Origin: Micromonospora pallida
GTDB lineage: Bacteria > Actinomycetota > Actinomycetes > Mycobacteriales > Micromonosporaceae
Length of the DNA stretch: 64,000 nucleotides
Direction: 5' to 3'
Assembly (NCBI RefSeq): GCF_900090325.1
Contig: NZ_FMHW01000002.1
Span: forward strand, 620,001 to 684,000
The notes beneath the pieces were generated by a model that searched no databases, was not told the DNA's origin, and worked only from the letters and a program-made list of their open reading frames with translations. The translations under genes and the position numbers were made by a program. Numbering within the stretch: position 1 is the first letter of the stretch; each line of letters opens with the position of its first letter. Below, piece by piece: positions 10,299 to 25,939 of this stretch.

Positions 10299-10320
10299 AC
10301 CTCCGCCGGGGGCGCCGCTC

Positions 10321-11257: not shown

Positions 11258-11259
11258 CC

Positions 11260-11330
11260 CCGTACCCACTTCCGCGACCGCCGCCCGGGGGCTCAGCCCG
11301 CGTCGGGCGGCGGCTCGGCTGTGGGTACGG
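11260..11330. terminator. nested bidirectional terminator
   Basis: Outer 10-bp arms (CCGTACCCAC, 11260-11269 and 11321-11330) enclose a second perfect 10-bp stem (CCGCCGCCCG, 11278-11287 and 11304-11313). It separates the rightward CBM2-like gene from the leftward RiPP operon end. The inner part repeats the 3' end of the metalloprotease gene (CTCAGCCCGCGTCGGGCG). Confidence 0.75.
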
Positions 11331-11339
11331 GGGCTCGGT

Positions 11340-12653
11340 TCAGCCCGCGTCGGGCGCGGGGCCGGCTGCCGGTGCGGGGCTGCTGGCCTTGGGGGTGACG
11401 GGCTCGGGGGTGCTGGCCTCGGGAGCGCCTTCGTCGGTGGCGGCTCGTGCCCGACGGCGGTACAGGTAGCCGATCGCGGCGACCACCAGGACCGCCTCCA
11501 CCGCCAGGATGGTGACCGCCCAGAAGGGACTTGTCCAGGTCGCCAGGGACACGTACCAGTAGCGCACCAGCAGCACCAGCAGGGTCACCCCGAACAGCAG
11601 CGAGGCCAGCCCGTACGTGGCGTAGACGACCCGGTCGCGCGGCCGGTATCCGGCCACCGTCCGGGGGCCGCCGCGCAGCAACCGGCCCCAGAACTGGTAC
11701 GAGTCGGCGCGCAGATCGACCAGGTTCAGCGCGTGGCTGAGCATGTAGTAGCCGTCCAGCCGCAGGAACGGCACCAGGCCGATGCTGGCGGCGGCGGTGC
11801 CGAAGAGCAGGATCGTGGCGGCCAGGTCACGCAGCACGCCGGGGTCGGCCCACAGCCAGATCGCGGCGAACGGCAGCAGCGCGAGCAGGCTCACGAAGAT
11901 CCCGGCGAAGGCGGTCGCCACCCGTCGGCGCGGGGTGAACAGCACCACGTCGTCGACCTTGCAGTACGGGGCGAAGATCGGGAAGCGCCACATCATGCCG
12001 ATCTCGGTGACCCGCCCGCCGAAGTGCCGGCAGGCCAGGCCATGCGCGCACTCGTGCAGGAAGACGATCGCCCAGGTGATCACCACGGCGGCGAGAATCG
12101 CGGCGAGCGGGCGATGCCCGCCGGTGACCACGGCGGTCAGCTCGGACAGGTGCAGCGCCACGTATCCGATCAGGGCCAGCACCGTGGCCAGCGCGGGGAT
12201 CACGAACCACCAGGTGAACACCGGACGCAGTGCGGGCAGCACCCGGTCGAAGAGCCGTTCCGGATCGAACAGCGGGATCCGGGCGGACAACGGACCCCGC
12301 TTGGCCTTCGCCGCGCTCTCGGCGGCGGTGGCGGCGAGCCGGGCGAGTTCCGCCGGGTCGGTCGCGCCATCGAGCAGTTGCCGCCGGTGCAGCATGCCGA
12401 AGAGCTGCTGCCAGCTCTCCGGGCCGAGCCGGCGGTGGAACACCTCGGCGTATTCGGCGGCCAACTCGTCGAGGGTGCGGGTGCCGTCCATCCGGGCCAG
12501 CAGGAAGTGCTCCCGGGGACCGACCCGGTAGTACCAGCCCGTCTCCGGGTCCTTGACGTGGTGGACGAGCTTCTCCCCGCGCCACTGCCCGGGGCCGAGG
12601 ACGATCCCTGGACGCAGCCGGGGCCGCGTCCAGGTGGTTTCGACCGTCGTCAT
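11340..12653 (-). CDS. PqqD-like/M50 membrane zinc metalloprotease of the RiPP cluster
   Basis: A 437-residue protein, last gene of the RiPP operon. Residues about 15-100 form a small winged-helix PqqD-like region (YYRVGPREHFLLARMDGTRT, LDELAAEYAEVF) of the kind that often recognises RiPP leaders. Then come about six to seven membrane helices with a zinc-protease motif HECAH at 200-204 and a third-ligand LDG at 299-301 (FLRLDGYYML), as in M50 site-2-type peptidases and YydH-like proteins. Key residues look intact. It probably cleaves the leader, processes or exports the product, or acts in protection. The ATG overlaps the previous stop (TGATG), implying translational coupling. The C-terminus is Pro/Ala/Thr-rich and disordered. 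Confidence 0.85.
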   Translation of the reverse strand: MTTVETTWTRPRLRPGIVLGPGQWRGEKLVHHVKDPETGWYYRVGPREHFLLARMDGTRTLDELAAEYAEVFHRRLGPESWQQLFGMLHRRQLLDGATDPAELARLAATAAESAAKAKRGPLSARIPLFDPERLFDRVLPALRPVFTWWFVIPALATVLALIGYVALHLSELTAVVTGGHRPLAAILAAVVITWAIVFLHECAHGLACRHFGGRVTEIGMMWRFPIFAPYCKVDDVVLFTPRRRVATAFAGIFVSLLALLPFAAIWLWADPGVLRDLAATILLFGTAAASIGLVPFLRLDGYYMLSHALNLVDLRADSYQFWGRLLRGGPRTVAGYRPRDRVVYATYGLASLLFGVTLLVLLVRYWYVSLATWTSPFWAVTILAVEAVLVVAAIGYLYRRRARAATDEGAPEASTPEPVTPKASSPAPAAGPAPDAG

Positions 12654-13732
12654 CACGCGCCGGCCGGGGCCAGGTCGTCGGTGGTCTCGGCCGGGTCCCC
12701 GGGCGCCATGTCGTCCAGCAGCGCGGTGCGGATCAGGTACGACAGGTAGATCTCGTCGAGAATGCTCACGCCGAGCCGGTTGTTGGTCATGTGCACGTAC
12801 GAGCTGAGCAGGATCGACATGGCCGCGTCCCGGTCCCGGACCACGGTCGGCTCCCCGCCGCCGCGCTGGAACACCAGGTCGCCCCGATCGGCGGCGGCCA
12901 GCACCCGGTCCCGCAGCTCGCGGCAGTGCGCCAGCCAGCGTCCCTCGATGCCGGTGACCGAGACGCCGGTGTCCCGGGCGGCGGCGCGGATGCCGGCGAG
13001 CCGCTCCCGCAGGGCGGCGTCCATCTTCCGGTAGCTGCTGTCGAAACTGGCGTGGTAGTCGTCGCTGGGCTCCTGGTAGGAGACCTCCCAGAACCGCCGG
13101 TACTCGTCGAGGAAGTCGGCGATGCGCCGGTCGTCGTCCAGGAACGCCGCGCACATCATCGTGGTGAGCTGCGTGGACAGGCCGAGCAGCACCGGTCGGA
13201 CGTGCACGTTGGTGGTGGCGAGCAGGTCCAGCACCACGTCGCTGGAGTGCTCGAAGTGCCACTCGGCCAGCTCGATGCCGGCCGGGCCGCCGTAGCGGCT
13301 GTACTCCCGCTCGTACGCGATGTGGTGGGCGCTGTTGTTGGCCCGCATCGGCATCACGCCGTCCGGCCCGTACTCGACGTCCCAGCGCTCCTGGCCGTAC
13401 TCGGCGAGGAACATCTGCTTGTAGAGACCGCCGAGCCCGTCGGCGTCCACCTCGTACAGCGCGGGGCGGCGACGCAGGAACGCCGCGAGCGCCTCGTCCA
13501 CCCGGGCCCGGACGAGCGCCGGGTCGACGCCGGGGGCGGGCAGCACCCGCAGCCGCACGTGCGGCCCCTCCATCCAGTACTTGATGAAGAAGTACCGGCT
13601 GATCAGCCCCTCCTCCCGCAGTTCGTCCACCAGCGGGCGGACCCCCTCGACCAGCATCGGGTTGGCGTTGCTGGCGTAGAAGACGTGGACGCTGAGCCAA
13701 CCGTGGTCCGTCGGGGACGGGAAGACAGTCAC
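12653..13732 (-). CDS. thiopeptide-type bacteriocin biosynthesis protein (SpaB_C domain)
   Basis: A 359-residue stand-alone SpaB_C-type domain: WLSVHVFYASNANPMLVEGV, FFIKYWMEGPHVRLRVL, and late MTNNRLGVSILDEIYLSYLI. In split LanB systems this partner eliminates glutamate from glutamylated Ser/Thr to give dehydroalanine or dehydrobutyrine; in thiopeptides a relative builds the pyridine ring. As it is the only such protein here and directly follows the glutamylating subunit, I infer the elimination role. The GTG start overlaps the dehydratase stop by 4 nt (GTGA). Its own stop overlaps the protease start. Confidence 0.85.
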   Translation of the reverse strand: MTVFPSPTDHGWLSVHVFYASNANPMLVEGVRPLVDELREEGLISRYFFIKYWMEGPHVRLRVLPAPGVDPALVRARVDEALAAFLRRRPALYEVDADGLGGLYKQMFLAEYGQERWDVEYGPDGVMPMRANNSAHHIAYEREYSRYGGPAGIELAEWHFEHSSDVVLDLLATTNVHVRPVLLGLSTQLTTMMCAAFLDDDRRIADFLDEYRRFWEVSYQEPSDDYHASFDSSYRKMDAALRERLAGIRAAARDTGVSVTGIEGRWLAHCRELRDRVLAAADRGDLVFQRGGGEPTVVRDRDAAMSILLSSYVHMTNNRLGVSILDEIYLSYLIRTALLDDMAPGDPAETTDDLAPAGA

Positions 13733-16488
13733 AGCTGCACCTTTCCGGCTCGTACGCCGTTGAGTTCGACGGTCAGTTCGGTGACGTGGGTGCCGGCGGG
13801 GCCGCGCAGCACCTGCTCGTCCCGGTCGGGCAGCATCTCGGTCAGCACCATCCGGCTGCCCGCTCCCCGGGCGGTGGCGTCCAGCAGTTGCAGCGAGAAG
13901 TGGCTGTCGAAGTCGACGTAGAGCGGCTTGTGGTCGGGCCGGCCGCCGGGCTGCGGCGCGTCGTCGGCGGCCGGGGTGAGCCGGGTGCCCTCCGGGGTGG
14001 CGAAGACCCGCCGGGGCAGGTTGTTCTCCCGCCGCCAGCGCTGCCAGCGCAGGAACCAGTCCGCCTCGCTCTGGTCCGGGGTGCGGGCCGGCGGCAGGAA
14101 GTCCGGGTGCAGCTTCCACATCCGCCGTTGCAGCACCAGGTCACCGTGCACGATGCGTGGGTAGCCGACCATGCCGGTGCCGGGCAGCGGCACGGTGGTG
14201 CCGGCCCACAGGTCCGGCTGGGCCATCCCCAGGTACGCGAAGGTGAGCAGCACCTGCTGCACCTCGGGCAACGCCATCGGCAGCAGGAAGCCCAGGTAGA
14301 CCGGGATCACCTCGGCGTCGAGCCGGCGGGAACGCAGCAGCAGCCGGTCCGTTTCCGGGTCGTGTTCGATGCTGAGGTCGTCCATGTGGATCTGCTCGGC
14401 TTCCGGCCGGAAGCTGATCTCGCCGGGGCAGACCAGCTCGTACGGGGTGACCACCGGGTGCAGGTTGAGGTTCGTGGCGTCGTAGCCGCCCTTCAGTTCA
14501 GCCAGCACCGCGCCGGGCGGGGCGAGCCGGGTCAGCTCGGCGCGGAGCCGGCCGGCCAGGTCCTCGTCGCCGAACAGGTGCGCGAACCGGGAGAAGAGCA
14601 GGGTCATTCCGGAGTAGATCCGGTTCACCACCACCCGGTTGCGGTCGCCCTGGTCGGCGATCTGGAGGAAGAACGAGCGCGGGTCGAGCACCCCGAGGGT
14701 CTCCGGCACCATGGCCGCGACGTCGGTCATGAAGGCGTCGTCGAGGACGAGTTCCTCGGCGTCCGGCGGCAGCGCGTCGTACGCCTCGTTCATCCGGCTG
14801 GCCACCTCCAGCCGGGCGTCGTCCAACGCGGTGATCTCCGGCTGCTTGAACCAGTTCTCCTGCCGGACGTAGTTGTTCTCCTCGTCGAACGCCCGGCGGC
14901 GCATCATCCGGCCGGTGTAGTGCTCGAAGAAGTCCTGCTGGAACTCGTGGGCGAAGGTGAGCAGGTCGTCGCAGCGCCCGCCGTCGCCGTACCGGGCCCG
15001 GAAGAAGCCCTTGGTGGCCAACCGGCGGGGCAGGTTGATGTCGAAGACCGGCATGATCCGGGCCAGCGCCCGCAGGCCGGGTAGCACCTCCCGCTCCCAG
15101 CGGCCCCGGTCCGCGGTCACCGGTTCCCGGGTGGGCAGCGCGGCGTCCTCGTAGAGCAGGGTGCGCGGCACCGGGATGTCGGCGCGGCCCAGGTCGGCGT
15201 GGGCGGCGGCGAGTTCGTCGCGGATCGCGGCAAGGGCGCGCCGCCGGCCGTCCACGTCGTGTTCCGGGTAGCCGGTGGCGAGCCGGTTGGCCACGTCGAC
15301 CCGTTCGGCGAGCTTGTCGGCCCAGCCCCGGCCGATGCCGTGCAGCGCCGTCCGGTAGCCGTCAACCGGGTCGTCGGCGTGGATGTCCAGGTGCAGGTTC
15401 GGCACCACCAGCAGGCCCACCCGGAGCAGGTGGTGCAGGTACTGCTCGACCTCGTCGGCGGGGCGGCCGTCGACGGCCAGTTCGGTGACCAGGTCGGCCA
15501 GCCGGCGGACGCGGCCGCCGTCGAGGGCGGCCAGGATGTCGTGCAGCATCCGGCCGGTGGGCAGGACGAACAGCGACTCGTGGATCGACTCCAGGGTGAT
15601 CGCGGCGTCGCCGTCCTCGGAGGCGGTACGGCGCCGGCGCAGGTAGCGCAGCCGGCCGCGCTCGATGCGCCAGCCGGTGGTGACGGTCACCGGCAGGTCG
15701 GGGCGGAGCGTCTCGTCGGCCAGGACGATCGCCGAGAGCCGGCCCAGGGCGGCCAGGTTGAGCCGCGCGCTGCCCCGCTTGGCCGCGCCCGGGACCGGGT
15801 CGACGCCGAGCAGGGTGCCGGTGCCGTCCGCGAGGGAGCCGACGTTGACCGTGGTCAGCCGGCTGAACGGGCTGGTCTTGCAGGCGGTGCGGAAGGCGTA
15901 CTCGAGCAGGGAGCGTTCCGCCCGGCGGGCCCGCTTGCCGAGCTTCGCCCCGGCGGTGAGGTAGCCGGGCAGGTACTGGTCCAGCGACGGGGACGCGAGC
16001 AGGATGCCGCCGCGCAGGTCCGGGTCGGCGGCCAGGTCCCGCAGCGTGGCCCGGCGCTCGGCCAGTTCGGCGTCGAGCACCGCCGCGCCGGCGGCCAGCT
16101 CCTGCCGGTACGCCGTCGAGGTGGCCAGCCACCGGGTGAGCAGATCGTGGGTGTCCGCGCCGAGCCGGTCGGCCGGCCAGGCGGCCGGGTCGGCGGGGCG
16201 GGGCTGGCGCAGGTTGTAGACGTCGCGCCGGAGTCGGATCAGCTTCTGCCGCAGCCCGTCGTCGTCGAGGTTGCGGGCCACCGCCGCCTGGAGCGCGTCG
16301 GCGAGTTCCCGGCCCGTCTCGCGCAGCCGGTCCTCCAGGTCCAGCACCCGGCGGGCCCAGGCGGCGGTGTGGTCGAAGGAGAGCCCGTCGGCGACCTCGA
16401 TCGGCAGCCCGGCGGTGCGCAGCATGAACACCTCGGGCATCCGCCAGGTCACGGGGCTCACCGTGGGAGCGGGCAGGGTCACCGTCAC
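13729..16488 (-). CDS. LanB-type dehydratase, tRNA-Glu-dependent glutamylation subunit
   Basis: A 919-residue lantibiotic-dehydratase N-terminal protein. Characteristic segments are EYAFRTACKTSPFSRLTTVNVG, here with the typical K-T-S-P-F-S-R stretch, and SLDQYLPGY, LYEDAALP, VFDINLPRR and MGYPRIVHGDL-like (VGYPRIVHGDLVLQRR) in the C-terminal part. It should glutamylate core Ser/Thr using glutamyl-tRNA. The GTG at 16488 is preceded by AAGGAG at 6 nt. An upstream GTG at 16533 that overlaps the sagB stop (GTGA) would add 15 residues and cannot be excluded. The elimination domain is split off as the next gene, as in thiopeptide and goadsporin clusters. Confidence 0.88.
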   Translation of the reverse strand: MTVTLPAPTVSPVTWRMPEVFMLRTAGLPIEVADGLSFDHTAAWARRVLDLEDRLRETGRELADALQAAVARNLDDDGLRQKLIRLRRDVYNLRQPRPADPAAWPADRLGADTHDLLTRWLATSTAYRQELAAGAAVLDAELAERRATLRDLAADPDLRGGILLASPSLDQYLPGYLTAGAKLGKRARRAERSLLEYAFRTACKTSPFSRLTTVNVGSLADGTGTLLGVDPVPGAAKRGSARLNLAALGRLSAIVLADETLRPDLPVTVTTGWRIERGRLRYLRRRRTASEDGDAAITLESIHESLFVLPTGRMLHDILAALDGGRVRRLADLVTELAVDGRPADEVEQYLHHLLRVGLLVVPNLHLDIHADDPVDGYRTALHGIGRGWADKLAERVDVANRLATGYPEHDVDGRRRALAAIRDELAAAHADLGRADIPVPRTLLYEDAALPTREPVTADRGRWEREVLPGLRALARIMPVFDINLPRRLATKGFFRARYGDGGRCDDLLTFAHEFQQDFFEHYTGRMMRRRAFDEENNYVRQENWFKQPEITALDDARLEVASRMNEAYDALPPDAEELVLDDAFMTDVAAMVPETLGVLDPRSFFLQIADQGDRNRVVVNRIYSGMTLLFSRFAHLFGDEDLAGRLRAELTRLAPPGAVLAELKGGYDATNLNLHPVVTPYELVCPGEISFRPEAEQIHMDDLSIEHDPETDRLLLRSRRLDAEVIPVYLGFLLPMALPEVQQVLLTFAYLGMAQPDLWAGTTVPLPGTGMVGYPRIVHGDLVLQRRMWKLHPDFLPPARTPDQSEADWFLRWQRWRRENNLPRRVFATPEGTRLTPAADDAPQPGGRPDHKPLYVDFDSHFSLQLLDATARGAGSRMVLTEMLPDRDEQVLRGPAGTHVTELTVELNGVRAGKVQL

Positions 16489-16529
16489 GGGGTTCTCCTT
16501 CGTCGGTGCGTCGGCGTGGGTCGGGGACG

Positions 16530-18245
16530 TCACAGCCGGTACGCCAGGTCGGCGGTGGCCTCGGGGTGCCGCCCGAGGAGCAGGAACAGCACGGTCCGCT
16601 CGTCGGTGTCGTCCAACCCGAGCGCGGTGTTCATAGCGACGTTGTCGAAGCCGAGCACCGCGCCGCAGCCGAGCCGCTGGGCGGTGGCCGACAGGTACGC
16701 CCGCTGGGCGATGGTGCCGATCTCGGCGTTGAGGACGCGGTAGCCGCGCGGGCCGAACACGTCGAGTACGGCGTCCGGGCGGCCGGAGATCGCCAGCACC
16801 GCCCCGACCTGGCTCATCGTGTAGTTGGTCAGGAAGTACTGCTGTTGCAGGAAGGCCGACATCCCGCCCTCGGGTTCCGGTCCGGCGGGCAGCAGCGCGT
16901 GCTGTCGTCCACAGTAGGCGTAGCTGCCGGTGTCGAGTCCGTCGACGTGGTTGGCGAAGACCCAGAGGCGGGTGAGCGCGGGGCCACCGTCGGGGCCCTT
17001 CACGTCGGCCGGGTGGTGCCCGCCGGCGGCGGCGAACGCCAGGGTGGTGCCGAGTTCGGCGGCGGTCAGCTCCGGCGGGCGGCGGAACCGGCCGAAGCTG
17101 CTGTTCCGGCTGGCCAGCACCGTCGACAGGGGCTGCGCCAGCCGGTCGATCTGGGGCGCGGGCAGCGCGACCGGGTCGCCGGGCAGGTCGACCGGTGCGG
17201 CGTCGGCGACCCGCCCCGGCGTGGGGGCGCTGTGCACCGCCGCCCGGTGCACGGTGGTGACCTGCGGGAACTCCAGCACCCGCTGGGAGCGCTCGAACGG
17301 CTCGTGCCGTACCCGCGGCCCGTCGGCCGGGCTGCCGGCGGGCCTGCTCAGAATGGCGGCGGGCGCGGTGGACGGCCCGGCCTGACTGGCGGCGGACGCG
17401 GCAGACGTGGTGGCGGACCGGGCGGCCGGCGCGGCGGTGGGGGCCGGGCGGCCGTCGTCGGTCCAGCGGACCGGGACGACCGTGAAGACGCTCTGCGCGT
17501 CGCTGTCGAAGCCGAGCAGCCGGTCCAGGGGAGCCGGGTCGAAGCGCAGGTGCCGGCGCAGCGGCCCGCCCAGCGCCGGGGCGAGCAGGTCCCAGGAGCC
17601 GAGCATCGCGCCCAGGTCCTGGGTGACCACGTGGTAGCAGAAGCTGTTGTACTTGAACGAGTTCTTCCAGAACCGGAGGGTGGCCAGCAGGAAGCTGTCC
17701 TCGGCGGCCGGCCCGTCCGGGGACGCGGCGTCGCCCAGGGCCGTCCGGACGGTGTCGGCGACGTCGGCGACGAGCAGCCGCTCCAGCACGTGCTGCCCGG
17801 TGTGGTAGTGGTACACCCCGGGCAGCAGCGGGCTGGACGCCCCGGCGACCAGGTAGATCTCCACCGGGTACATGCCGCCGCCGGAGGCGGTGCCCCGCCC
17901 CCAGACCGCGTGCTCGAAGTGCGCCCGCTTGGCGGCGTCCTGGTTCCAGTTGACGGTCATCCGCCGGTCGAGCACCCCGTACGACAGTCGCAGCAGGGTG
18001 GCCAGCCGGTCCAGCGACCAGCCCCGCACCGGGGGCAGGTTCTCCCCGGTGACCAGGTCCCGCAGGGTGGCCAGGTCCGGGACGGCCGTGGGCAGCGGCA
18101 GCCGGGGCGCGCCGGGGTAGGACAGGTGGCGGGAGGGCTGGTCGACCCAGTCCACCTCGAAGTTGAACGGCTCCATCGGTACCTGCGCCCGGCGGAACAC
18201 CGCCTCGGTGTACTCCCGGACGACCGCGACGGCCTCCTGCTGCAT
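16530..18245 (-). CDS. SagB-type FMN azoline dehydrogenase, tandem nitroreductase domains
   Basis: A 571-residue protein with two nitroreductase/SagB-like halves. Half 1 (about residues 65-260) has RGTASGGGMYPVEIYLVAG and LRFWKNSFKYNSFCYHVVTQ. A Pro/Ala/Thr-rich linker spans about 265-345. Half 2 (about 370-571) has RNSSFGRFRRPPELT, GGHHPADVKG, MSQVGAVLAISGR and EIGTIAQRAYLSATAQRLG, typical of FMN binding. It should oxidise thiazolines/oxazolines made by the YcaO enzyme to thiazoles/oxazoles, or oxidise only thiazolines. Most nitroreductases are homodimers, so this looks like a covalent pseudo-dimer. The ATG follows GTAGGAG; it starts 10 nt after the YcaO stop. Confidence 0.87.
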   Translation of the reverse strand: MQQEAVAVVREYTEAVFRRAQVPMEPFNFEVDWVDQPSRHLSYPGAPRLPLPTAVPDLATLRDLVTGENLPPVRGWSLDRLATLLRLSYGVLDRRMTVNWNQDAAKRAHFEHAVWGRGTASGGGMYPVEIYLVAGASSPLLPGVYHYHTGQHVLERLLVADVADTVRTALGDAASPDGPAAEDSFLLATLRFWKNSFKYNSFCYHVVTQDLGAMLGSWDLLAPALGGPLRRHLRFDPAPLDRLLGFDSDAQSVFTVVPVRWTDDGRPAPTAAPAARSATTSAASAASQAGPSTAPAAILSRPAGSPADGPRVRHEPFERSQRVLEFPQVTTVHRAAVHSAPTPGRVADAAPVDLPGDPVALPAPQIDRLAQPLSTVLASRNSSFGRFRRPPELTAAELGTTLAFAAAGGHHPADVKGPDGGPALTRLWVFANHVDGLDTGSYAYCGRQHALLPAGPEPEGGMSAFLQQQYFLTNYTMSQVGAVLAISGRPDAVLDVFGPRGYRVLNAEIGTIAQRAYLSATAQRLGCGAVLGFDNVAMNTALGLDDTDERTVLFLLLGRHPEATADLAYRL

Positions 18246-18255
18246 GACGGTGCTC

Positions 18256-20217
18256 CTACGGGAAGGGGTGCGGGTGGGGGTTGCGTGCGGTGGCGCCGAG
18301 CCGGTCGGGGCCCTGCTGTCCCCGAGCGAGGTGCTGGTCCAGCCGGTCGCTGTGGAGGATCCGCTGCCGCTGCCAGCCGAAGTCGATCGGGATCAGCCCG
18401 GGGGCGACGAGGGCCATCGTGTGCACCCCGGCGATCTCCTGCTCCGGGCAGGTCTGGTCGACGGCGAGGACGTCGCCGCCGAGTCCGGCGATCAGCCCGG
18501 CCAGGTACTCCACGTCGGCGGTCAGGTCGTCGTGGTCGGGGCGGACGGCCAGCCAGTCGCCGTACAGCTCGGTCATCGAACGCTTCGGCGGGTCGTCGAA
18601 GAGGAACGCCGCGTGCTGGGTCATCTCCGGCAGGCCGTAGAGCAGCGCATGGTGGCTCAGCTCGGTGACTCTCGTGTAGTCGCGGGTCATCTCATGCAGG
18701 TCCGGCAGGCTCGCCTCGACCCGCTCGTCGAAGCCGGGGACGTAGGAGGCGGTCTCGCAGACCGCCGCCCGGACCGCGTCGTCGGGGTCGAGGCTCGCCC
18801 CGGCGGCGAAGCAGAGCTGCCCCAGGCCCTCGCCGCGCTTGACCGCGACCGCAGTCACCACCGGTACGGGCAGGTCGGCGCGGGTGTCGAAGAGCCGGAT
18901 GTCGTACCCGAGCAGTTCGACCCGGTCGAGCATGAAGTGCACCTTCTCGTCCTGGCAGGTGGCCGGGTCGATCTCGGCCAGCCGGGACGAGCCGTACCAG
19001 GCGAGCAGGAAGGCGTCCCGTTCCACGAGTTCGAGCATGCCGTGCAGCAGCGCCTCCTCCGGGGAGCTGCCGCTGGCGCAGCCGTTGGAGCACTCCTGGA
19101 CGAACTTGCGCTGCTTCTCCCGCCGGTCCAGGTAGTAGACGAGCTGCTCGGGGACGAGTCGGGGCTGCTTGTCGCGCAGCGAGTAGCCCCAGACCCAGTG
19201 CATCGGCTCGGTCGGCGAGTACGGGGTGTAGTAGAGCCCGTGGCCCTCGTAGAAGGCCGGGTGGTAGCCGAGCCCGGCCGGGTCCATCGCGTCCGGGGCG
19301 AGGTTGGCGTAGCTGTCCACGACCTCGGTCCGCTTGGCCCGGGGGAACTGCCCGGCGTACCGCTCCAGCCCTTCGAGCAGCGCGTACGTCTCGCTGCTGC
19401 CGTAGCTGTTGGCGTGCCCGCTCCACCACATCTCGTGCAGGTCGAAGCGGCTGCGCACCCGGAAGTAGCCGGTCACCGGCGCGGTCGAGTTGGCGTTGTA
19501 CGCCCGCAGCGCGTTGCCGCCGAGCGTCCCGGCGACCGGGTTGGCCAGCGCGGCGACCGGCAGGTCCAGCTCGTCGGCGGAGCGCAGCCGGTACGTGGTC
19601 GGGCTCGGCTTGGGGCGGGGAACCAGCGGGATGATCGCCCGTTCGGCGGTGTCCGGGTGGACGGTGGCACAGGCGGGGCACTCGGAGTCGGCCATCACCT
19701 CGGCCACCGTGGTCTCCAGGGTGTCCATCCGCAGTTGGTACACCCGGCCGACGCCGGGGCGGGTGGCCTCCGGGGCGCTGGCGCGGACGAACAACTGCCA
19801 GATCGCCTCGACCGCGAACGGGGTCAGGTGCGGCAGCGGGCCGGCGACGCCGACTCGGGCGCCGTGTTCCAGGGCGTGCCGTTCGTCCCGTACCCGGATG
19901 GCCTGCCAGCGGCGCTGCACACAGAGCGGGCACGGGCCGGGGCGGGAGTCGGCGGCGGGGCCGGACCAGCGGGGGCCGACCAGCGCGGTCGCGCCGTGCA
20001 GCCAGATCGGGACGACCTCGCCGTCGGGTGCCCCGGTGGGGTCCTGGTTGACGTCGGTGAGGCCGAGCGCGGCGAGGCGGACGGTGACCCCGTCCCACGG
20101 CGACGCCGCGCGGTCCGATCCGTCGGCCGGGCGTTGGGCCCGTTCGTGGAACGCCTCCCCGAGCTGCTTGAGGCTGGTGTCCCACCCGGTGGAGGTGGTC
20201 CGGACGTCGACGATCAT
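18256..20217 (-). CDS. YcaO-domain azoline cyclodehydratase
   Basis: A 653-residue TOMM cyclodehydratase. The N-terminal third carries two CxxC pairs (CPLC 96-99, CPAC 180-183), a zinc tetrad as in ocin-ThiF/E1-like domains. The YcaO domain follows, with the ATP/Mg signatures SSETYALLEGLERYAG (274-289) and EALLHGMLELVERDAF (388-403), and a proline-rich C-terminus PHPHPFP matching the conserved PxPxP tail. It should use ATP to cyclise core Cys (and possibly Ser/Thr) to azolines. The ATG at 20217 is preceded by AGGTGA at 5 nt; GTG at 20226 would add three residues. It is separated from precursor 1 by a hairpin. Confidence 0.9.
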   Translation of the reverse strand: MIVDVRTTSTGWDTSLKQLGEAFHERAQRPADGSDRAASPWDGVTVRLAALGLTDVNQDPTGAPDGEVVPIWLHGATALVGPRWSGPAADSRPGPCPLCVQRRWQAIRVRDERHALEHGARVGVAGPLPHLTPFAVEAIWQLFVRASAPEATRPGVGRVYQLRMDTLETTVAEVMADSECPACATVHPDTAERAIIPLVPRPKPSPTTYRLRSADELDLPVAALANPVAGTLGGNALRAYNANSTAPVTGYFRVRSRFDLHEMWWSGHANSYGSSETYALLEGLERYAGQFPRAKRTEVVDSYANLAPDAMDPAGLGYHPAFYEGHGLYYTPYSPTEPMHWVWGYSLRDKQPRLVPEQLVYYLDRREKQRKFVQECSNGCASGSSPEEALLHGMLELVERDAFLLAWYGSSRLAEIDPATCQDEKVHFMLDRVELLGYDIRLFDTRADLPVPVVTAVAVKRGEGLGQLCFAAGASLDPDDAVRAAVCETASYVPGFDERVEASLPDLHEMTRDYTRVTELSHHALLYGLPEMTQHAAFLFDDPPKRSMTELYGDWLAVRPDHDDLTADVEYLAGLIAGLGGDVLAVDQTCPEQEIAGVHTMALVAPGLIPIDFGWQRQRILHSDRLDQHLARGQQGPDRLGATARNPHPHPFP

Positions 20218-20269
20218 CTGCGTCACCTGTCTGACGGGTCGGTACCGTGGTGCGGAGTCGAGGGTGGGA

Positions 20270-20298
20270 TCCCCGCCGGCAAGGCGCGCCGGCGGGGA
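20270..20298 (-). terminator. attenuator hairpin between precursor 1 and the modification genes
   Basis: An 11-bp perfect stem (TCCCCGCCGGC and its complement) with a 7-nt loop, 16 nt after the stop of precursor 1 and 52 nt before the YcaO start. Its position fits partial termination, giving more precursor than enzyme mRNA. Confidence 0.65.
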
Positions 20299-20313
20299 CG
20301 GTGGTGGGGCGGA

Positions 20314-20499
20314 TCAGCCCCCGCCACAACCGGTGCTGGTGCTGGTGCTGCAGCAGCTGGACGTGCTGCAGGAGCAGCAGCTGGAGCAGGAGCAGCTCGA
20401 GCTGGACCAGGCCATGACCATCGCGTCGACGGCGTCGACGTCCTCGATCTCGAAGGTCTCGGTCTCCAGCGCGCGGAGTTCCTCACTGAGTTCCGGCAT
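20314..20499 (-). CDS. RiPP precursor peptide 1, Ser/Cys/Thr-rich core
   Basis: A 61-residue precursor. The leader (about residues 1-31) is acidic and contains ALETETFEIEDVDAVDAM, the shared recognition motif of all three precursors. The core after about MVMAW is 30 residues, of which I count 14 Ser, 4 Thr, 8 Cys and 4 Gly; no other residue type occurs. It ends in GCGGG. The pattern includes CSCSSCCSCSTSSCC. This suits heterocyclisation of Cys and dehydration of Ser/Thr by the adjacent enzymes. The ATG follows GGGGAGGTG. It is closest to precursor 3 in both protein and DNA. The cleavage site is inferred, perhaps after Ala30 or Trp31. Confidence 0.9.
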   Translation of the reverse strand: MPELSEELRALETETFEIEDVDAVDAMVMAWSSSSCSCSSCCSCSTSSCCSTSTSTGCGGG

Positions 20500-20564
20500 T
20501 GTTCACACCTCCCCTCAACGCTCTCGGACCACGGCACCGCCGGACGAGCCGACGGCGCCGCGGT

Positions 20565-20783
20565 TCAGCTTGTGCTGCTGCAACTCGACGAGGTGCAGCT
20601 GCAACAACTCGACGTACTGCAGCTGGAGCAGCTCGAGGTGCTGGTGCTGCTGCTGCAGATGTCCATGACATCGGCGGACAGGTCCGCGATGTCCTCGACC
20701 TCGAACGTCTCGGTCTGGAGGTTCCGCAGCTCGCTGCGAACGGACTCCGGAAGCGCGACGGACGCGGGGTGCTGTGGTGCCAT
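20565..20783 (-). CDS. RiPP precursor peptide 2, uninterrupted Ser/Thr/Cys core
   Basis: A 72-residue precursor with a longer leader (about 42 residues: an extra N-terminal MAPQHPASVALPESV segment, then LRNLQTETFEVEDIADLSAD). The last 30 residues contain only Ser, Thr and Cys (7 Cys by my count). The block SCSTSSCC is shared with precursors 1 and 3, but Cys spacing elsewhere differs, so it should give a distinct product. The ATG at 20783 follows GAGGAGAGG. It is the middle of the three precursor genes. Confidence 0.9.
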   Translation of the reverse strand: MAPQHPASVALPESVRSELRNLQTETFEVEDIADLSADVMDICSSSTSTSSCSSCSTSSCCSCTSSSCSSTS

Positions 20784-20876
20784 GGGCCTCTCCTCGAGCC
20801 GCGGTGAAATGCCAGTCGTGGTCGGGTCCGGTCCGCACCACCACAGTGGACCGGTGGAGGCACGCGGGGGGCTGCT

Positions 20877-20898
20877 CGCCGGTCGCGGACGACCGGCG
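20877..20898 (-). terminator. hairpin between precursor 3 and precursor 2
   Basis: A perfect 9-bp stem (CGCCGGTCG and its complement) closed by a CGGA tetraloop, 74 nt downstream of the precursor 3 stop and about 95 nt before precursor 2. It could attenuate transcription or stabilise the precursor 3 message. Confidence 0.5.
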
Positions 20899-20971
20899 GC
20901 GGATGGTGCGGTTTCCTGCGGAGACCGGCTTCGGACTGGGGACGTCAGCGTGGGGTCGACCCCGGGCAGCC

Positions 20972-21154
20972 TCAGCCGCAGCTCGAGGTGCTGGTGCTGG
21001 TGGAGCAGCAGCTCGAGGTGCTGCAGGAGCAGCAGCTGGAGCAGGAGCAGCTGGAGCTGGTCGCGGCCAGCGCCTCGGCACCGTCCTCGACCTCCTCGAT
21101 TTCGAAGGTCTCGGTCTCCAGCTCGCGGAGCTCGTGGTTCAGGGTGATCGGCAT
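20972..21154 (-). CDS. RiPP precursor peptide 3, Ser/Cys/Thr-rich core
   Basis: A 60-residue precursor, first of the three in transcription order. The leader (about residues 1-31) has the motif ELETETFEIEEVEDGAEAL. The 29-residue core is Ser, Thr and Cys (8 Cys) except for a final Gly. Over most of the core it equals precursor 1 (SSSCSCSSCCSCSTSSCC then STSTST), and differs mainly at the end (SSCG instead of GCGGG). It has a near-perfect ribosome site (AAAGGAGGTGAAC), suggesting strong translation. It starts 54 nt after the ThiF/YcaO-like gene. Confidence 0.92.
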   Translation of the reverse strand: MPITLNHELRELETETFEIEEVEDGAEALAATSSSCSCSSCCSCSTSSCCSTSTSTSSCG

Positions 21155-21208
21155 GTGTTCACCTCCTTTCCGGGTCGCGTGCCTCGTGGGACCACTGTCG
21201 TGGTGGTT

Positions 21209-23356
21209 TCAGTCGGCCGTGGGGCGCTGGTGCAGCAGCACCACGCCGCTGCGGAACGCCCCGCTGGCCCGTACGTCCCGGGTGGTCGTCTCCACCAGCA
21301 GGGCGTCGGTCCCGCACGCGGCCAGGGCGGCGAGGACGGTCTCCCGGTCGGTGGCGGTCGGGGCCGCGCCGCTGGTGGTGGTCGCGGCGGCGGTCAGGGT
21401 CGCCGGGTCGAGGTCGACCAGGAACGGGTCGCCCGGGTCGGCCGAAACGCCCTCGAAGTGCCGTACCTGGATCAGGCCGACCAGGTCCCGGGCCGCCGCG
21501 CGGCGGGTGGTGACCGGGTCGAAGCCGGCGACCAGGGTCCAGAGCCGGTCGCCGCCGTCGGGCGGCGTGGTCACCGCGAGGACGGCGTGCGCCGGGGCCG
21601 CGCCGGCCAGTCCGTAGAGCGCGACCTGCCAGCCGAATCGGTGTGCCGCCTTGATCACCAGCGCGGTGTCCTCGTCGGCGACGAGGTCCTCCTCGGCGAT
21701 CGCGACGAGTCCGTCCCGGCCGCGCAGGGCGCCGGTGAGTGCCCGGTACGCCAGCGCGTCGGCGAGCCCCTGGTCGATCACCGCGTCGAGGGTGTCGCCG
21801 ACCGCCGCCCCGGCGGGGGTCCGCTCGGCGTAGCCGTCGGCGTTCGCCCCGGACAGCGGCAGCACCAGCGCGGCCGGCACCAGCAGCTCGACCGCGCCGT
21901 CGAGGGTCCGTGCCGGCACCCAGGTGGTGTGCCGGTCCGCGTCGTACGGCAGGGTCCCGGCGGCGGTGTCCAGTTGCGTCCACGGCACCGGGCGGTGACC
22001 GGCGGCGAGCAGCTCGGCGGCGGTGCCGTCGACCGCGCCGACCGGGCGGGCGTACCGGCCGACGTGCTCGCGGATCGCGACCCGGTACGCCTCGAGGCGG
22101 GCGCCCAGCACGGTGTGCACGTCGAAGGTGGTCAGCTCGCGTGGCCCCCGCCGGCCCGGCACCCGGAGCCGCGCCGTCTTCAGTGGAGACTGCTCCAGCG
22201 GGTCGTCGACGAACCGGGTGAAGACCCCGGCGTGGTCGGAGACCAGCACGCCGGCCCGCTGGTAGGTCTCGTCCTCGTCGGCGGCGGCGTCCTCGGTGGC
22301 CTCGGGCACCTCGACGTCCCGACAGACCGGGCAGGCCGGGTGGGGCAGGACCCGCTCGCGGCTGGACTCCAGGGTGGACTGGTCGAGCAGGAGCACCGAC
22401 GTGCCGGTGTCCGGGGCGAGGGCTCCGGTGCGGACCCGGAAGAGTTCGAAGGCGGCGGCGTTGCCCAGCGTCCGGGCGGTGACCTGGGGCAGGGCCGCCG
22501 GTTCGCCGCCGTCCGGTCCGACGGCGAGCCGGCGCCAGAACTCGGCGGCGACGGCGGGCTCGGCGGAGGCGGTGAGTCGGAACTGCGCGCAGAGCCAGCA
22601 GGGCGTCTGTCCGGCGGCGACGACGGGGCCGAGCACCGCCCGGTCGCTGTCGGCGTAGACCGGCACCAGGAGCGGGCCGTCCCGGTGGCAGGTGCGGGCG
22701 AGCTCGTGCAGGCGGGCCAGGTCGGTCCCGTCGGTGCAGTACACGACCGCGTCGACGCCGGTCGGGTCGAGCGGGCCGGTGTGCACCCGCACCTCGGCCG
22801 GTACGCCCTCGGCGCGCAGCTCGTCGACCTCCGCGGCCAGCGCGGTGCGGTAGGTCTCCGGGGCGTCGTCGGGGTAGACGTCCAGGGACACGCACCCGTT
22901 GCGCAGCAGTCCGGTGACCGCGGCGAGCAGGGTCTCCCCGGATCCGCCGAGCGCCACCCGGGTGGTGTGGAAGCGCGCGAAGCGGCCGGTGGGGTCGTCG
23001 GCGAAGTGGTCGACGAACTCGATCTGCGGGGCGAACCGGCGGGCCACCGGCTCGGCCAGGTCGGCGCGACCCCGGGCGTCCTTGGCGAAGCCGCGGCTGA
23101 CCAGGGCCCGGACCAGGCTGACCACGGTCCGCCGTTGGCTCTCGTCGAGGTCGGCGCAGAGCTGGCCCAGGCTGTGCTCGCCGTTGAGGTAGGGGCTCAG
23201 CGAGGACAGCCAGCGGAAGGCGGTGCGGCCCTTGATGAGGAACGCCGAGTCCGGTCCGCGCAGGTAGGCGCCGGCCGGAGCGTCGAGGAACACCACGTCA
23301 TGGCGCAGCTTGGGACGCATCTCAAGGGTCTGGTCACCGTCCGTTAGCACGCTCAT
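21209..23356 (-). CDS. TOMM leader-binding protein: ThiF-like plus YcaO-like domain
   Basis: A 715-residue protein, first gene of the RiPP operon. Residues about 15-95 form a PqqD-like leader-recognition region (LIKGRTAFRWLSSLSPYLNG, LVRALVSRGFAKD). An ocin-ThiF-like domain follows, with a degenerate nucleotide loop (VALGGSGETLL, about 134-144) and zinc CxxC pairs CWLC (253-256) and CPVC (342-345). From about residue 370 a YcaO-like domain begins (LGARLEAYRVAIREHVGRYA), but the acidic ATP-binding signatures of the neighbouring YcaO are not obvious. I infer it presents the leader and activates the true cyclodehydratase. The ATG at 23356 follows ATAGGAG. Confidence 0.85.
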   Translation of the reverse strand: MSVLTDGDQTLEMRPKLRHDVVFLDAPAGAYLRGPDSAFLIKGRTAFRWLSSLSPYLNGEHSLGQLCADLDESQRRTVVSLVRALVSRGFAKDARGRADLAEPVARRFAPQIEFVDHFADDPTGRFARFHTTRVALGGSGETLLAAVTGLLRNGCVSLDVYPDDAPETYRTALAAEVDELRAEGVPAEVRVHTGPLDPTGVDAVVYCTDGTDLARLHELARTCHRDGPLLVPVYADSDRAVLGPVVAAGQTPCWLCAQFRLTASAEPAVAAEFWRRLAVGPDGGEPAALPQVTARTLGNAAAFELFRVRTGALAPDTGTSVLLLDQSTLESSRERVLPHPACPVCRDVEVPEATEDAAADEDETYQRAGVLVSDHAGVFTRFVDDPLEQSPLKTARLRVPGRRGPRELTTFDVHTVLGARLEAYRVAIREHVGRYARPVGAVDGTAAELLAAGHRPVPWTQLDTAAGTLPYDADRHTTWVPARTLDGAVELLVPAALVLPLSGANADGYAERTPAGAAVGDTLDAVIDQGLADALAYRALTGALRGRDGLVAIAEEDLVADEDTALVIKAAHRFGWQVALYGLAGAAPAHAVLAVTTPPDGGDRLWTLVAGFDPVTTRRAAARDLVGLIQVRHFEGVSADPGDPFLVDLDPATLTAAATTTSGAAPTATDRETVLAALAACGTDALLVETTTRDVRASGAFRSGVVLLHQRPTAD

Positions 23357-23402
23357 GCAGGCTCCTATGCCATCGACTGTGGCCGTTCCAAAAGTGAGCA
23401 CC

Positions 23403-23431
23403 ATCGTGCACAAGACGTTCACGAGCGTCAA
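23403..23431 (-). promoter_or_regulatory. candidate promoter of the RiPP operon
   Basis: Leftward TTGACG (-35, 23431-23426), 17 nt, CACGAT (-10, 23408-23403), placing transcription start about 40 nt before the ThiF/YcaO-like ATG. An inverted repeat TTCACGA (23418-23424) / TCGTGAA (23441-23447) brackets the -35 box and may be an operator. No regulator gene is visible in the cluster. Confidence 0.5.
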
Positions 23432-23488
23432 ACAAATGTTTCGTGAAGCTGGTGGTACGCGGCAAGGTCCCTTGTTCTGGGCTGGGGT

Positions 23489-23527
23489 GGAAGAGGTCCT
23501 TCCGGACAATCCGGCGTGTGCTCTTCC
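23489..23527. other. nested hairpin in the divergent RiPP/ABC intergenic region
   Basis: GGAAGAG (23489-23495) pairs with CTCTTCC (23521-23527); inside, CCGGA-CAA-TCCGG (23502-23514) forms a second stem, with symmetric 6-nt internal loops. The 456-bp region 23357-23812 is less GC-rich than its surroundings and otherwise holds the two candidate promoters and a short upstream ORF. The hairpin may terminate, attenuate or bind a regulator. Confidence 0.4.
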
Positions 23528-23745
23528 ATGAAAGATCGACCTCGGCTAGCCTGTGGTCGGCATCCGGCTCTTTGCAGTTCAGGGGCCATGAAAGCGTGCT
23601 GTGTAAGGCCCTGTCGCACCGTCCACTCCGGACACGACCGGTTTGCTCCGGTCCACCGGACGGCCGCCGGGATTGATTCGTGCCGACGCCGCCATCGGAT
23701 TTGCAACAATCTCGATCGTGTTAACAGGAAAGCCGAGGTGGCCGG

Positions 23746-23820
23746 ATGAGGACGGAGACAATCTTGCCGACGTGTTCGCTTGAGCGTATTTCTTGGTCGT
23801 GGTGTCGGGCTGATGGGTGA
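23746..23820 (+). CDS. possible 24-residue upstream ORF overlapping the ABC ATPase start
   Basis: An ATG with GAGGTGG at 5 nt opens a 24-codon frame (MRTETILPTCSLERISWSWC then RADG) that ends at TGA 23818-23820, overlapping the ABC ATPase ATG (23813) by 8 nt. The ATPase itself has no good ribosome site, so translational coupling would explain its expression. Codon use is less GC-biased than neighbours. It may instead be a chance frame. Confidence 0.35.
   Translation: MRTETILPTCSLERISWSWCRADG
23764..23792 (+). promoter_or_regulatory. alternative promoter of the ABC transporter
   Basis: TTGCCG (23764-23769), 17 nt, TATTTC (23787-23792), about 20 nt upstream of the ATPase ATG. It lies within the possible upstream ORF, so only one of the two models may be right. 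Confidence 0.35.
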
Positions 23821-24769
23821 CGATTTCGCCATCGAGTTGGACGGCGTCACGAAGCGGTACCCGGGTGGGGTCACCGCCGTGGCTGACCTGCGCCTTCGGG
23901 TGCCGCGGGGAGAGGTCTTCGGCTTCCTCGGACCCAACGGCGCGGGCAAGACCACCACGATGCGGATGCTCGTCGGACTGGTCCGACCCACCAGCGGCCG
24001 GATCCGTGTCCTCGGACAGCCGCCCGGCACACCGGAACAGTTGGCTCAGGTCGGGGCCTTGATCGAATCTCCGACCTTTTACCCACACCTGTCCGGGCTC
24101 GACAATCTGCGCCTGGCGGCCCGGTACGCGGGCGTGCCGGAGAGCGCGGCCGAGCGGGTGCTGGCCGAGGTGGACCTCAGCGCGCGGGCCGGCTCCCGGT
24201 TCCGCGAGTACTCACTGGGTATGAAGCAGCGCCTCGGCGTGGCCGCCGCGTTGCTCAAGCAGCCGCACCTGCTGATCCTCGACGAGCCGACGAACGGGCT
24301 GGACCCGGCCGGCGTGTCGGAGATGCGCGAACTGCTGCGCTCGCTGGGCCAGCGCGGGCACACCGTGCTGCTCTCCAGCCATGTCCTCGGCGAGGTCGAG
24401 CAGGTCTGCGACCGGATCGCGGTGATCGACGGCGGTCGGCTCGTCGCCGACGGCACGCCCGACGAGCTACGGGCCCGCCTCGGTAGCGGGTCGCTGGTCA
24501 TCGTCGCCGATCCGGTGGACAAGGCAGTCGCCTGCCTGACCGACCATGCGGCCGTGCAACGGGTGGATACCGTCGACGACACGCTACGGGTCGCCACCGA
24601 CCCGGCGCTGGCCGCGGAACTCAACCGGCTCCTGGTCCAGGCCGGCGTCGAGGTCCGCGAACTGCGGCCGGTGCGCCACTCGCTGGAGGAGGCGTTCCTG
24701 GAACTGACCAAGGCCGAGCGGACCACCGGTGAGACGGGCCCGACGAGCCCGGGGGAGGGCGACAAGTGA
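23813..24769 (+). CDS. ABC transporter ATP-binding protein next to the RiPP cluster
   Basis: A 318-residue ATPase with all NBD motifs: Walker A GPNGAGKTT (40-48), signature YSLGMKQR (133-140), Walker B LLILDEPT (153-160) and switch His in LSSH. It belongs to the CcmA/NatA/BcrA-like drug and bacteriocin exporter group. The C-terminal 100 residues are the accessory domain seen in this group. The following permease overlaps by 4 nt (GTGA). Placement divergent from the RiPP operon suggests export or self-immunity. I chose the ATG at 23813 from the domain start; the ribosome site is weak. Confidence 0.9.
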   Translation: MGDDFAIELDGVTKRYPGGVTAVADLRLRVPRGEVFGFLGPNGAGKTTTMRMLVGLVRPTSGRIRVLGQPPGTPEQLAQVGALIESPTFYPHLSGLDNLRLAARYAGVPESAAERVLAEVDLSARAGSRFREYSLGMKQRLGVAAALLKQPHLLILDEPTNGLDPAGVSEMRELLRSLGQRGHTVLLSSHVLGEVEQVCDRIAVIDGGRLVADGTPDELRARLGSGSLVIVADPVDKAVACLTDHAAVQRVDTVDDTLRVATDPALAAELNRLLVQAGVEVRELRPVRHSLEEAFLELTKAERTTGETGPTSPGEGDK

Positions 24770-25608
24770 TCGCATCGGTACGTGCCGCCTGGTTCGCCGA
24801 CCGGAAGCGGCCGGCGGTCTGGACCGTCACCGCGACCTGGACGATCCTGGCCATCGCGTTCGGCATCGGCATCCCGTACATCGTGCACCTGGCCCTCTCC
24901 GGTGACCCGAAACAGGCCGAGGCGGCCGAGTCGCTGCTCACCACCGTGCTGCCGGAGAAGCTGGTGTCCACCGGGATCGGGCTCTTCCCGCTCTTCGGCG
25001 GCGCGATCGTGGTGATCCTCGGCGCGCTGGTCGTCGGCAACGAGTACCGCTGGGGCACGCTCAACCTGATCTTCACCCAACGACCCCGGCGGGCGCAGGT
25101 GATGCTCGGGCACGCCGTGGCGCTCTGCGGCCTCACCCTGCTGCTGGTGCTGATCACCTTCACCGCCCTGGCCGTGGTCACCGCGATCCTCGCCACCGTC
25201 GAGGGGCAGGGGCTCGACTGGCCGTCGGTTGGTTCGCTGGCCGGCGCGGTGGGGGCGGCCTGGCTGATCTGCACCGCGCACGCGAGCGTCGGCTACTTCC
25301 TGGCCATCGCGTTCCGCAGCACCGCGACCGCCATCGCGGTCGGTCTGGTCTGGACGCTGGTGCTGGAGAACGCGGTCAACGGCCTCGCCCTGGTGCTCGA
25401 ACCGTTGAAGGTGCTCCAGAAGGTGCTCCTGGCCCCGAGTTCCGGCTCGGTCGCCGGGGCGCTCGGCGCGCCCTCCCAGTTCGAGGGCGGCACGCCGGGG
25501 GTGATGGAGTCGTCGAGCGCCTGGTTGCCGGCTACCGTGCTGGCAGCCTACGTACTGCTCATGTTCGGCCTGGGTACCTGGGTCGCGGTGCGGCGCGACG
25601 TCAACTGA
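24766..25608 (+). CDS. ABC transporter permease (ABC-2 type)
   Basis: A 280-residue integral membrane protein with about six helices: ATWTILAIAFGIGIPYI, GAIVVILGALVVGNEYRWGT, LTLLLVLITFTALAVVTAI, an ALAFRST-like segment (LAIAFRSTATAIAVGLVW) and a last helix before VAVRRDVN. The GNEYRWGT-x-N-LIFTQRPRR stretch is typical of ABC-2 permeases of bacitracin/lantibiotic-type exporters. The GTG start overlaps the ATPase gene. It should form the pore for the cluster's product or another hydrophobic substrate. Confidence 0.88.
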   Translation: MIASVRAAWFADRKRPAVWTVTATWTILAIAFGIGIPYIVHLALSGDPKQAEAAESLLTTVLPEKLVSTGIGLFPLFGGAIVVILGALVVGNEYRWGTLNLIFTQRPRRAQVMLGHAVALCGLTLLLVLITFTALAVVTAILATVEGQGLDWPSVGSLAGAVGAAWLICTAHASVGYFLAIAFRSTATAIAVGLVWTLVLENAVNGLALVLEPLKVLQKVLLAPSSGSVAGALGAPSQFEGGTPGVMESSSAWLPATVLAAYVLLMFGLGTWVAVRRDVN

Positions 25609-25705: not shown

Positions 25706-25939
25706 ATGGAGTTCCTCCTCGCCTTCGTGGTGACCGGACTGGCGGCCAGCGGTGGCTGGATCGCCTGGGCCGGGGTCCGGGGCTGGAGCCGGTACCGCAA
25801 CCGCCGCCACGAGTTGGCGCTCGCCCGGGTCCGCGCCGAGGCGGTGGTGCGCCAGGCCGAGTTGGAGGCGCACGTCCGGGAGCTGGAACTGGCCAGCGAG
25901 ACGTACGAGGACTTCAAGCGCCGCCACCCCGAGAACTGA
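25706..25939 (+). CDS. small membrane protein with coiled-coil tail
   Basis: A 77-residue protein: one N-terminal helix (MEFLLAFVVTGLAASGGWIAWAG), then a basic stretch (RYRNRRHE) and an alanine/glutamate-rich helix likely to form a coiled coil (RVRAEAVVRQAELEAHVREL). The ATG follows GGAAGGAG. It lies 97 nt after the permease and before a strong terminator, so it may be part of the same transcript. Function unknown. Confidence 0.7.
   Translation: MEFLLAFVVTGLAASGGWIAWAGVRGWSRYRNRRHELALARVRAEAVVRQAELEAHVRELELASETYEDFKRRHPEN

Follow-up and report, generated by a model that had tools for sequence, protein, structure and literature searches.

A window of 64,000 nucleotides from Micromonospora pallida (assembly GCF_900090325.1, contig NZ_FMHW01000002.1, positions 620,001 to 684,000; genome 7.76 Mb) was analysed, and all positions below count from its first letter. 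Between 11340 and 25939 it carries a cluster of about 14.6 kb for ribosomally synthesized and post-translationally modified peptides (RiPPs) (Table 1). The order of transcription on the minus strand is F protein, precursors A, B and C, YcaO, SagB, LanB N-protein, SpaB_C protein and HExxH protease; an ABC ATPase, an ABC-2 permease and a 77-aa membrane protein are read from the plus strand, divergently from the F gene. What sets this cluster apart is its fixed trio of cores, which between orders is conserved more strongly than the leaders and enzymes. A first-pass annotation of the DNA had described three tandem precursors with LETETFEIE-type leaders and 29-30-residue cores of Ser, Thr and Cys (0-4 Gly), which we confirm, and a full azole set (F, YcaO, SagB) with split LanB dehydratase, which the family models support, next to a protease and an ABC exporter. 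It had placed the cluster at 11340..23356; the F gene does start at 23356, but the right end lies near 25939 and takes in the ABC ATPase, the permease and the 77-aa protein. Every enzyme it named is present, but the 77-aa protein had been missed, and the longer open frame given for the protease is replaced here by a gene at 11340-12653.

Table 1. Genes of the cluster, by position in the window
Feature	Position	Strand	Characteristics and evidence
HExxH (M50-type) membrane metalloprotease	11340..12653	-	6 hydrophobic segments; HECAH at residue 200; LDG near residue 300
Stand-alone SpaB_C (Lant_dehydr_C) protein, predicted glutamate-elimination type	12653..13732	-	PF14028 164.5 bits
LanB N-terminal (glutamylation) protein, TbtB-like	13729..16533	-	PF04738 131.9 bits
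SagB-family azoline dehydrogenase, 2 nitroreductase-like parts	16530..18245	-	TIGR03605 136.1 bits; PF00881 46.8 bits; PDB matches
YcaO cyclodehydratase; the partner part at its N-terminus carries two CxxC, and its C-terminus is NPHPHPFP	18256..20226	-	TIGR03604, TIGR03882, PF02624
Precursor C	20314..20499	-	core SSSSCSCSSCCSCSTSSCCSTSTSTGCGGG, 30 aa, 4 Gly
Precursor B	20565..20783	-	core CSSSTSTSSCSSCSTSSCCSCTSSSCSSTS, 30 aa, no Gly
Precursor A	20972..21154	-	core TSSSCSCSSCCSCSTSSCCSTSTSTSSCG, 29 aa, 1 Gly
F protein, made up of a leader-binding domain, a ThiF-like part (two CxxC motifs) and a C-terminus like a degenerate YcaO	21209..23356	-	profile and PDB matches
ABC ATPase	23816..24769 (open frame from 23780)	+	PF00005 100.1 bits
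ABC-2 type permease, 6 hydrophobic segments	24766..25608	+	PF12679 33.5 bits, over cut-off
77-aa protein, one hydrophobic segment then charged stretch	25706..25939	+	genome co-occurrence

The leaders carry LETETFEIE in precursors A and C and LQTETFEVE in B, and a ribosome-binding-like sequence is visible by eye upstream of all three; core start positions were set from conservation. We counted neighbouring residues in 26 related cores, hand-copied and some of them near-identical, and found Cys right after Ser in 153 of 205 cases, where shuffling gives a mean of 108; for Thr after Ser the figure is 103 of 126, compared with a shuffled mean of 64.5. Neither count was reached in any of 2000 shuffles, a result that is not to be read as a probability. 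Thr-Cys and Cys-Thr are scarce in the same cores (6 and 4, compared to 31 each in shuffles). The cores look as if written for a rule in which Ser directly precedes an azole. For goadsporin, azoles at positions 5 and 15 are described as necessary for dehydroalanine (Dha) at 4 and 14, GodF requiring azoles (PMC5303826), and TbtB is described as acting on heterocyclised substrate only (PMC10676384).

To see how the cluster is kept within the genus, related loci were collected in two ways. A YcaO-based search returned 8 loci, seven from Micromonospora and one from Micromonosporaceae, and all of them hold the eight protein genes in the same arrangement plus three precursors, with core B cut to CSSTS in one (L005). 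These 8 loci fall in the same genomes as our sample of 160 Micromonospora genomes and were not counted again. The cluster is found in 21 of the 160: 20, the window's own genome included, have a continuous LanB match of at least 80 % and the 21st (G145) has a broken one, while one further genome (G082) keeps a LanB remnant and the other LanB matches in the genus reach 27-52 %. Each cluster gene is found at 18-19 of 19 sister loci, with the protease gene at 19 of 19 and the permease at 18 of 19, the exception (L056) being a contig that ends there. The precursor region can be read in 20 genomes, counting the window and the broken copy in G145 (L056 ends too early). Cores A and C are present in all 20, and core B is intact, and identical, in 15. 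Elsewhere precursor B is truncated (L066) or a decayed remnant (L061), and no core B was seen in the remaining three of these genomes (L068, L070, L048). Precursor B therefore seems dispensable, A and C being intact where B has decayed or lost most of its core. G145 carries, besides its broken copy (L048) with intact precursors A and C, a second related cluster (L034).

Mean pairwise dN/dS values of the cores are 0.041/0.314 for A, 0.000/0.474 for B and 0.016/0.340 for C (20, 14 and 19 sequences; B and C of L069 not included). Leader dN, measured likewise, is 0.044, 0.041 and 0.026, and within the genus cores B and C are tighter than their own leaders. Core B is invariant in this set and core C varies only at position 21 (T/S), while the 20 A cores vary only at positions 1 (T/S), 21 (T/C) and 25 (T/C), the latter two flanked by invariant Ser. 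Because going from Thr to Cys (ACC to TGC) takes two base changes, the Thr/Cys exchange looks selected. The 77-aa gene follows the cluster closely: it is found in 20 of the 21 cluster-bearing genomes (missing in G096) and in none of the 139 others.

Beyond the genus, a sample of 394 genomes of the class gave 19, the window's own included, with a LanB match at E < 1e-130. Twenty further loci were examined, 16 from this class search and 4 from a family search, and our filter for S/T/C-rich precursors found such genes at 18 of them and none at L094 and L100. In a second set of 20 loci the filter found them at 14; L051 has a thiopeptide-like precursor, and no S/T/C-rich precursor was found in L031, L044, L046, L049 and L052. 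All three core types recur in four loci of one family, f34 (L083, L085, L086, L087), from another order of the same class. There the cores match those of the window at 25-28 of 29 positions (A), 27 of 30 (B) and 28 of 30 (C), or 86-97 %; for comparison, three pairs in which one partner was shuffled had 10-13 identical positions on average and never more than 22. Leaders of the same type are 39-56 % identical and the cluster proteins 30-61 % (F 30-31, LanB 43-47, SpaB_C 57-61). Between orders, a defined set of three cores has been held while leaders and enzymes diverged. Cross-order core dN is 0.07-0.23 and dS 0.28-2.1, noisy values from short sequences, and 1-3 Ser per core changed between the TCN and AGY codon families. 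We also considered that the cores arose by chance or as a low-complexity artefact; this is ruled out by the dN/dS values and the recurrence in another order. The first-pass annotation had missed this conservation.

Leaders of type A score best with A across orders (5 of 5), but those of B and C do not separate, and so the leaders do not establish one-to-one orthology. Weak homologues of the 77-aa protein lie beside the protease gene at all four f34 loci (E 4e-8, 6e-7, 3e-5 and 0.006), and a homology search of L034, L040, L041, L042, L095, L096 and L097 gave no convincing match. A fifth f34 locus (L099) is of a type with two YcaO genes and has a different core.

The enzymes expected for an azole peptide are present: a YcaO cyclodehydratase with partner part (TIGR03604 295.6 and TIGR03882 74.4 bits, both over cut-off; PF02624 277.6 bits; PDB matches to MusD, LynD and TruD) and a SagB-type dehydrogenase, matched by TIGR03605 over cut-off in two stretches. 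The F protein scores 102.2 bits with TIGR03693 (cut-off 561.9) and 72.8 bits with TIGR03882 (over the cut-off of 36.9), and its N-terminus matches the PbtF structure 8t19 (E 1.3e-5). Besides the adjoining true YcaO enzyme, the F protein itself contains a degenerate YcaO-like domain in its C-terminal part (PF02624 32.2 bits). Split LanB glutamylation and elimination proteins are likewise present (PF04738, PF14028), with no pyridine synthase beside them; the true start of the LanB N-protein may lie further downstream, and its sole PDB match is 6ec7 (E 1.2e-39), which we take to be TbtB. The protease reaches 166.3 bits with NF041824 daptide_HExxH (cut-off 300, and thus not an equivalog) and 22.3 bits with PF02163, under the cut-off of 27.2; it is probably the leader protease. 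The top NCBIfam match of the ABC ATPase is the lantibiotic protection ATPase TIGR03740 (229.5 bits, under the cut-off of 309.75), and its role is probably export or immunity, as judged by sequence. No Pfam or NCBIfam model matches the 77-aa protein over cut-off, and it is a candidate immunity or export accessory.

Taken together, we consider it probable, at roughly 77 %, that this is a complete cluster for three linear azole- and Dha-containing peptides (linear azole peptides, LAPs) of the goadsporin biosynthetic type. The analysis shows which genes are present, what families they belong to, that they occur together and that the cores are under selection; the chemistry, the modification pattern and the function that follow are inferred. 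The F protein would bind the LETETFEIE leader and hand the core to YcaO, which would cyclodehydrate Cys and, in Ser-Thr pairs, Thr; oxidation by SagB would then give thiazoles and methyloxazoles. After heterocyclisation the LanB N-protein would glutamylate each Ser that immediately precedes an azole; elimination of the glutamate by the SpaB_C protein would leave Dha. Given the Ser-Cys and Ser-Thr arrangement, most of the core would become a run of Dha-azole pairs, and if the rule holds throughout the predicted counts are 12 azoles and 10 Dha for A, 10 and 9 for B and 12 and 9 for C. The membrane M50-type protease would remove the leader, and the ABC-2 transporter would export the product, protect the cell or both, probably with the 77-aa protein as immunity or export accessory. 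The most likely function would be growth inhibition or signalling between actinomycetes.

Several observations weigh against this interpretation. The leader cleavage site and the role of the protease are guesses, and the daptide protease model and the most specific models for the F protein and the ABC ATPase were all matched well under cut-off. Core A has 15 Ser, of which five do not directly precede Cys or the Thr of a Ser-Thr pair and could be oxazole, Dha or unmodified; common descent could account in part for the dipeptide bias; and inside the genus core A shows no tighter constraint than its leader (dN 0.041 versus 0.044). In f34, core B has Gly for Ser20 and Cys for Ser24, so that some of the presumed Dha positions vary. 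The top PDB match of the SpaB_C protein by E-value is a pyridine synthase, TbtD (4e-6 alone, 8e-15 with the family profile), and the nearest large LAPs, the spongiicolazolicins, are described as lacking antibacterial activity (PMC8838263).

A further question is whether the product is a thiopeptide, in which [4+2] cycloaddition between two Dha would form a pyridine macrocycle. In favour are the match to TbtD, the NCBIfam assignment of precursor C to the thiazolylpeptide type, the match of the LanB protein to 6ec7 and the resemblance of CCSCS in cores A and C to thiopeptide tails. We addressed this question with the pyridine-synthase model NF045556 (cut-off 325 bits). The SpaB_C protein of the window reaches 103.6 bits and those of L034, L036 and L040 80-104, while at L051, a locus of the same genus with two SpaB_C genes that served as positive control, the first scores 101.8 and the second 479.6. 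With the family profile, TbtD is matched mainly at the N-terminus and is followed by TsrE, 5ehk, 9g04, NisB and PbtD. The motifs YEREYSRYGG and HMTNNR align with YDPEYERYGG and HMTCNR of the lantibiotic dehydratase 5ehk, presumably MibB, and we assume that these shared motifs act in elimination. By sequence, the SpaB_C protein is of the elimination type and not a pyridine synthase. No pyridine synthase was found in the cluster, where SpaB_C is single, or in a genome-wide PF14028 search, which gave two further genes, one in a 1132-residue open frame and the other beside a LanC-like gene and with no NF045556 match at E 0.1. Related clusters with S/T/C precursors each have one SpaB_C match by tblastn, by which a strongly diverged second copy could escape. 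Because the single SpaB_C is of the elimination type, a thiopeptide macrocycle is very unlikely, and we rejected this reading on the missing pyridine synthase gene, an absence the first-pass annotation had passed over. Another locus of the genome (G000:C2:913290-916119; L102, L103) holds a pair of LanB/SpaB_C-type genes, one of them next to a LanC-like gene, and is probably a class I lanthipeptide cluster.

Split dehydratase proteins of class I type could also serve a lanthipeptide-like product, with Dha and Cys forming thioethers, but no LanC or other cyclase was matched among the cluster proteins scanned and YcaO, F and SagB would be left unexplained; we give this the least credence of the alternatives. 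Less improbable, though still unlikely, is that azoles and Dha form at only a few positions and the remaining Cys thiols bind metal or form disulfides. Each core has 7-8 Cys, all invariant in the Micromonospora sequences counted, and the Ser-before-azole rule is carried over from other systems. However, the azole and dehydratase enzyme set is complete and conserved, the swapping of Thr and Cys that core A shows at positions 21 and 25 suits heterocycles better than thiol chemistry, and no metal-transport family was found among the cluster proteins scanned (Pfam/NCBIfam).

We compared the cluster with known systems. Goadsporin (Streptomyces sp. TP-A0584; compared by description only) is likewise described as linear, with azoles and with Dha made by split LanB proteins (PMC5303826, PMC4603692), but with one precursor (30-aa leader, 19-aa core), a fused cyclodehydratase and N-terminal acetylation, whereas the cluster has F plus separate YcaO, three 29-30-residue S/T/C cores and no acetyltransferase among its genes. 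Spongiicolazolicins A and B (Streptomyces sp. CWH03) are described as large linear azole peptides of 28-29 residues related to goadsporin (PMC8838263, PMC10676384), with a pattern similar to triplets of Dha/Dhb (dehydrobutyrine), azole and natural residue and with fewer dehydrated residues (PMC11583998); a close match of our cores to them, compared by descriptions only, is possible. The dehydrazole carnazolamide resembles the predicted products in its 30-residue core with 8 azoles, 8 dehydro residues and Dha only before azoles (PMC10676384), but is described as using a LanM-type (DUF4135) dehydratase fused to a cyclase domain and a long proteusin-like leader; the cluster has a split LanB, its dehydratase proteins matching LanB-type models only, and a short leader. 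Goadsporin, the spongiicolazolicins and carnazolamide are thus already described as pairing azoles with Dha. Thiopeptides such as thiomuracin, GE2270 and the L051 type share F, YcaO, SagB, LanB N-protein and elimination-type protein and, by the model match of precursor C, the precursor family, but the cluster's S/T/C-only cores are longer and a pyridine synthase was not found in it. The coryneazolisins, predicted in 2015 in Corynebacterium, likewise have azole genes with LanB-like dehydratases and, as described, no [4+2] protein; their core of 10 C/S/T, Ile and then 5-7 C/S/T is shorter than those of the cluster (PMC4603692), and they have two YcaO (D) proteins, whereas the window YcaO finds one match in its whole genome and the cores hold no Ile.

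Searches of open-access literature turned up no characterised product carrying these cores, as the first-pass annotation had supposed, and the single text match to a core fragment was a bridging code in a lanthipeptide paper and unrelated. The core is nevertheless less unfamiliar than that annotation had it: the family is already recognised in part, precursor C exceeding the cut-off of the NCBIfam model NF033400 'thiazolylpeptide-type bacteriocin' (35.2 versus 30 bits; A and B stay under those of NF033400 and TIGR03892), and PMC4603692 already describes predicted coryneazolisin clusters with C/S/T cores.

A LanB tree (FastTree; supports not inspected), rooted on L051 and L052, places the window together with L034/L096, L040 and the f34 loci; L041, L095 and L097 branch next outward, then L042 with L081, L082 and L084, and then a large sister group. 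Cores of L034, L040, the f34 loci, L041, L042, L095, L096 and L097 contain the motif CSTSSCC, which is not among the core sequences obtained for L081, L082, L084 or the sister group; a second YcaO gene is found in L081, L082 and L084 and in most of the sister group. The two-YcaO relatives look closer to the coryneazolisins than the window cluster does. Sixteen loci of the sister type (L035, L036, L037, L038, L039, L043, L045, L047, L050, L088-L093 and L098) have a different short core, which finishes with SSTTSTTSC and two further residues, mostly SA, and is conserved from Micromonospora to other families. They have a second YcaO wherever gene content was listed (L037, L039 and L043 are outside that listing), and their gene set resembles that of the predicted coryneazolisins.

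G+C is 0.68-0.76 in the cluster and alike in the flanks, and because of this similarity there is no compositional sign of recent transfer. Of 20 sister loci searched, only L053 and L054 showed the flanking pullulanase, a count to be read with the reach of these loci, which extend only 0.6-2 kb past the small gene on that side, truncated loci not at all. A search of plasmids with YcaO gave three records, and one with precursor A gave no match with the low-complexity filter on. On the linear Streptomyces plasmid NZ_CP108024.1 (L108, 315530-341374) a related cluster has, in this order, F, YcaO, SagB, LanB, SpaB_C, a hypothetical protein, ABC and permease genes, with transposase genes 8-11 kb away; its precursor MSVELRDELSALESATFEIEEMTDESVELAWSSSSCSCSSCCSCSTSSCCSCSSSTS, absent from the (incomplete) gene table, is encoded between F and YcaO. 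Long-term movement of the cluster is likely, given how rarely the pullulanase flank is found and the plasmid location of the Streptomyces relative. Viral contigs gave no match, and no RNA element reached the gathering threshold within 11000-26200. To the left of the cluster, between genes, lie short direct repeats of about 25 bases (GGTGACGCCGCCCGAACCCCTGCGC type, ~10320-10415).

It is conceivable that the three cores make up one fixed product. Its three oligo(Dha-azole) peptides would be modified almost throughout, and their exact sequence, beyond mere composition, would be held tighter than leaders and enzymes across orders of Actinomycetes because they act together or each on one conserved target. 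We regard this as a tentative proposal, more doubtful than not. In RiPPs the core is usually the part expected to change fastest, ahead of leaders and enzymes, and the reversed order found here points to a specific function. The clusters are common (21 of 160 Micromonospora genomes, one broken) and compact enough to express. With 26-30 Ser/Thr/Cys each, the cores offer a stringent substrate for how YcaO and LanB choose among such residues, and the family lends itself to probing the action of a dense Dha-azole chain.

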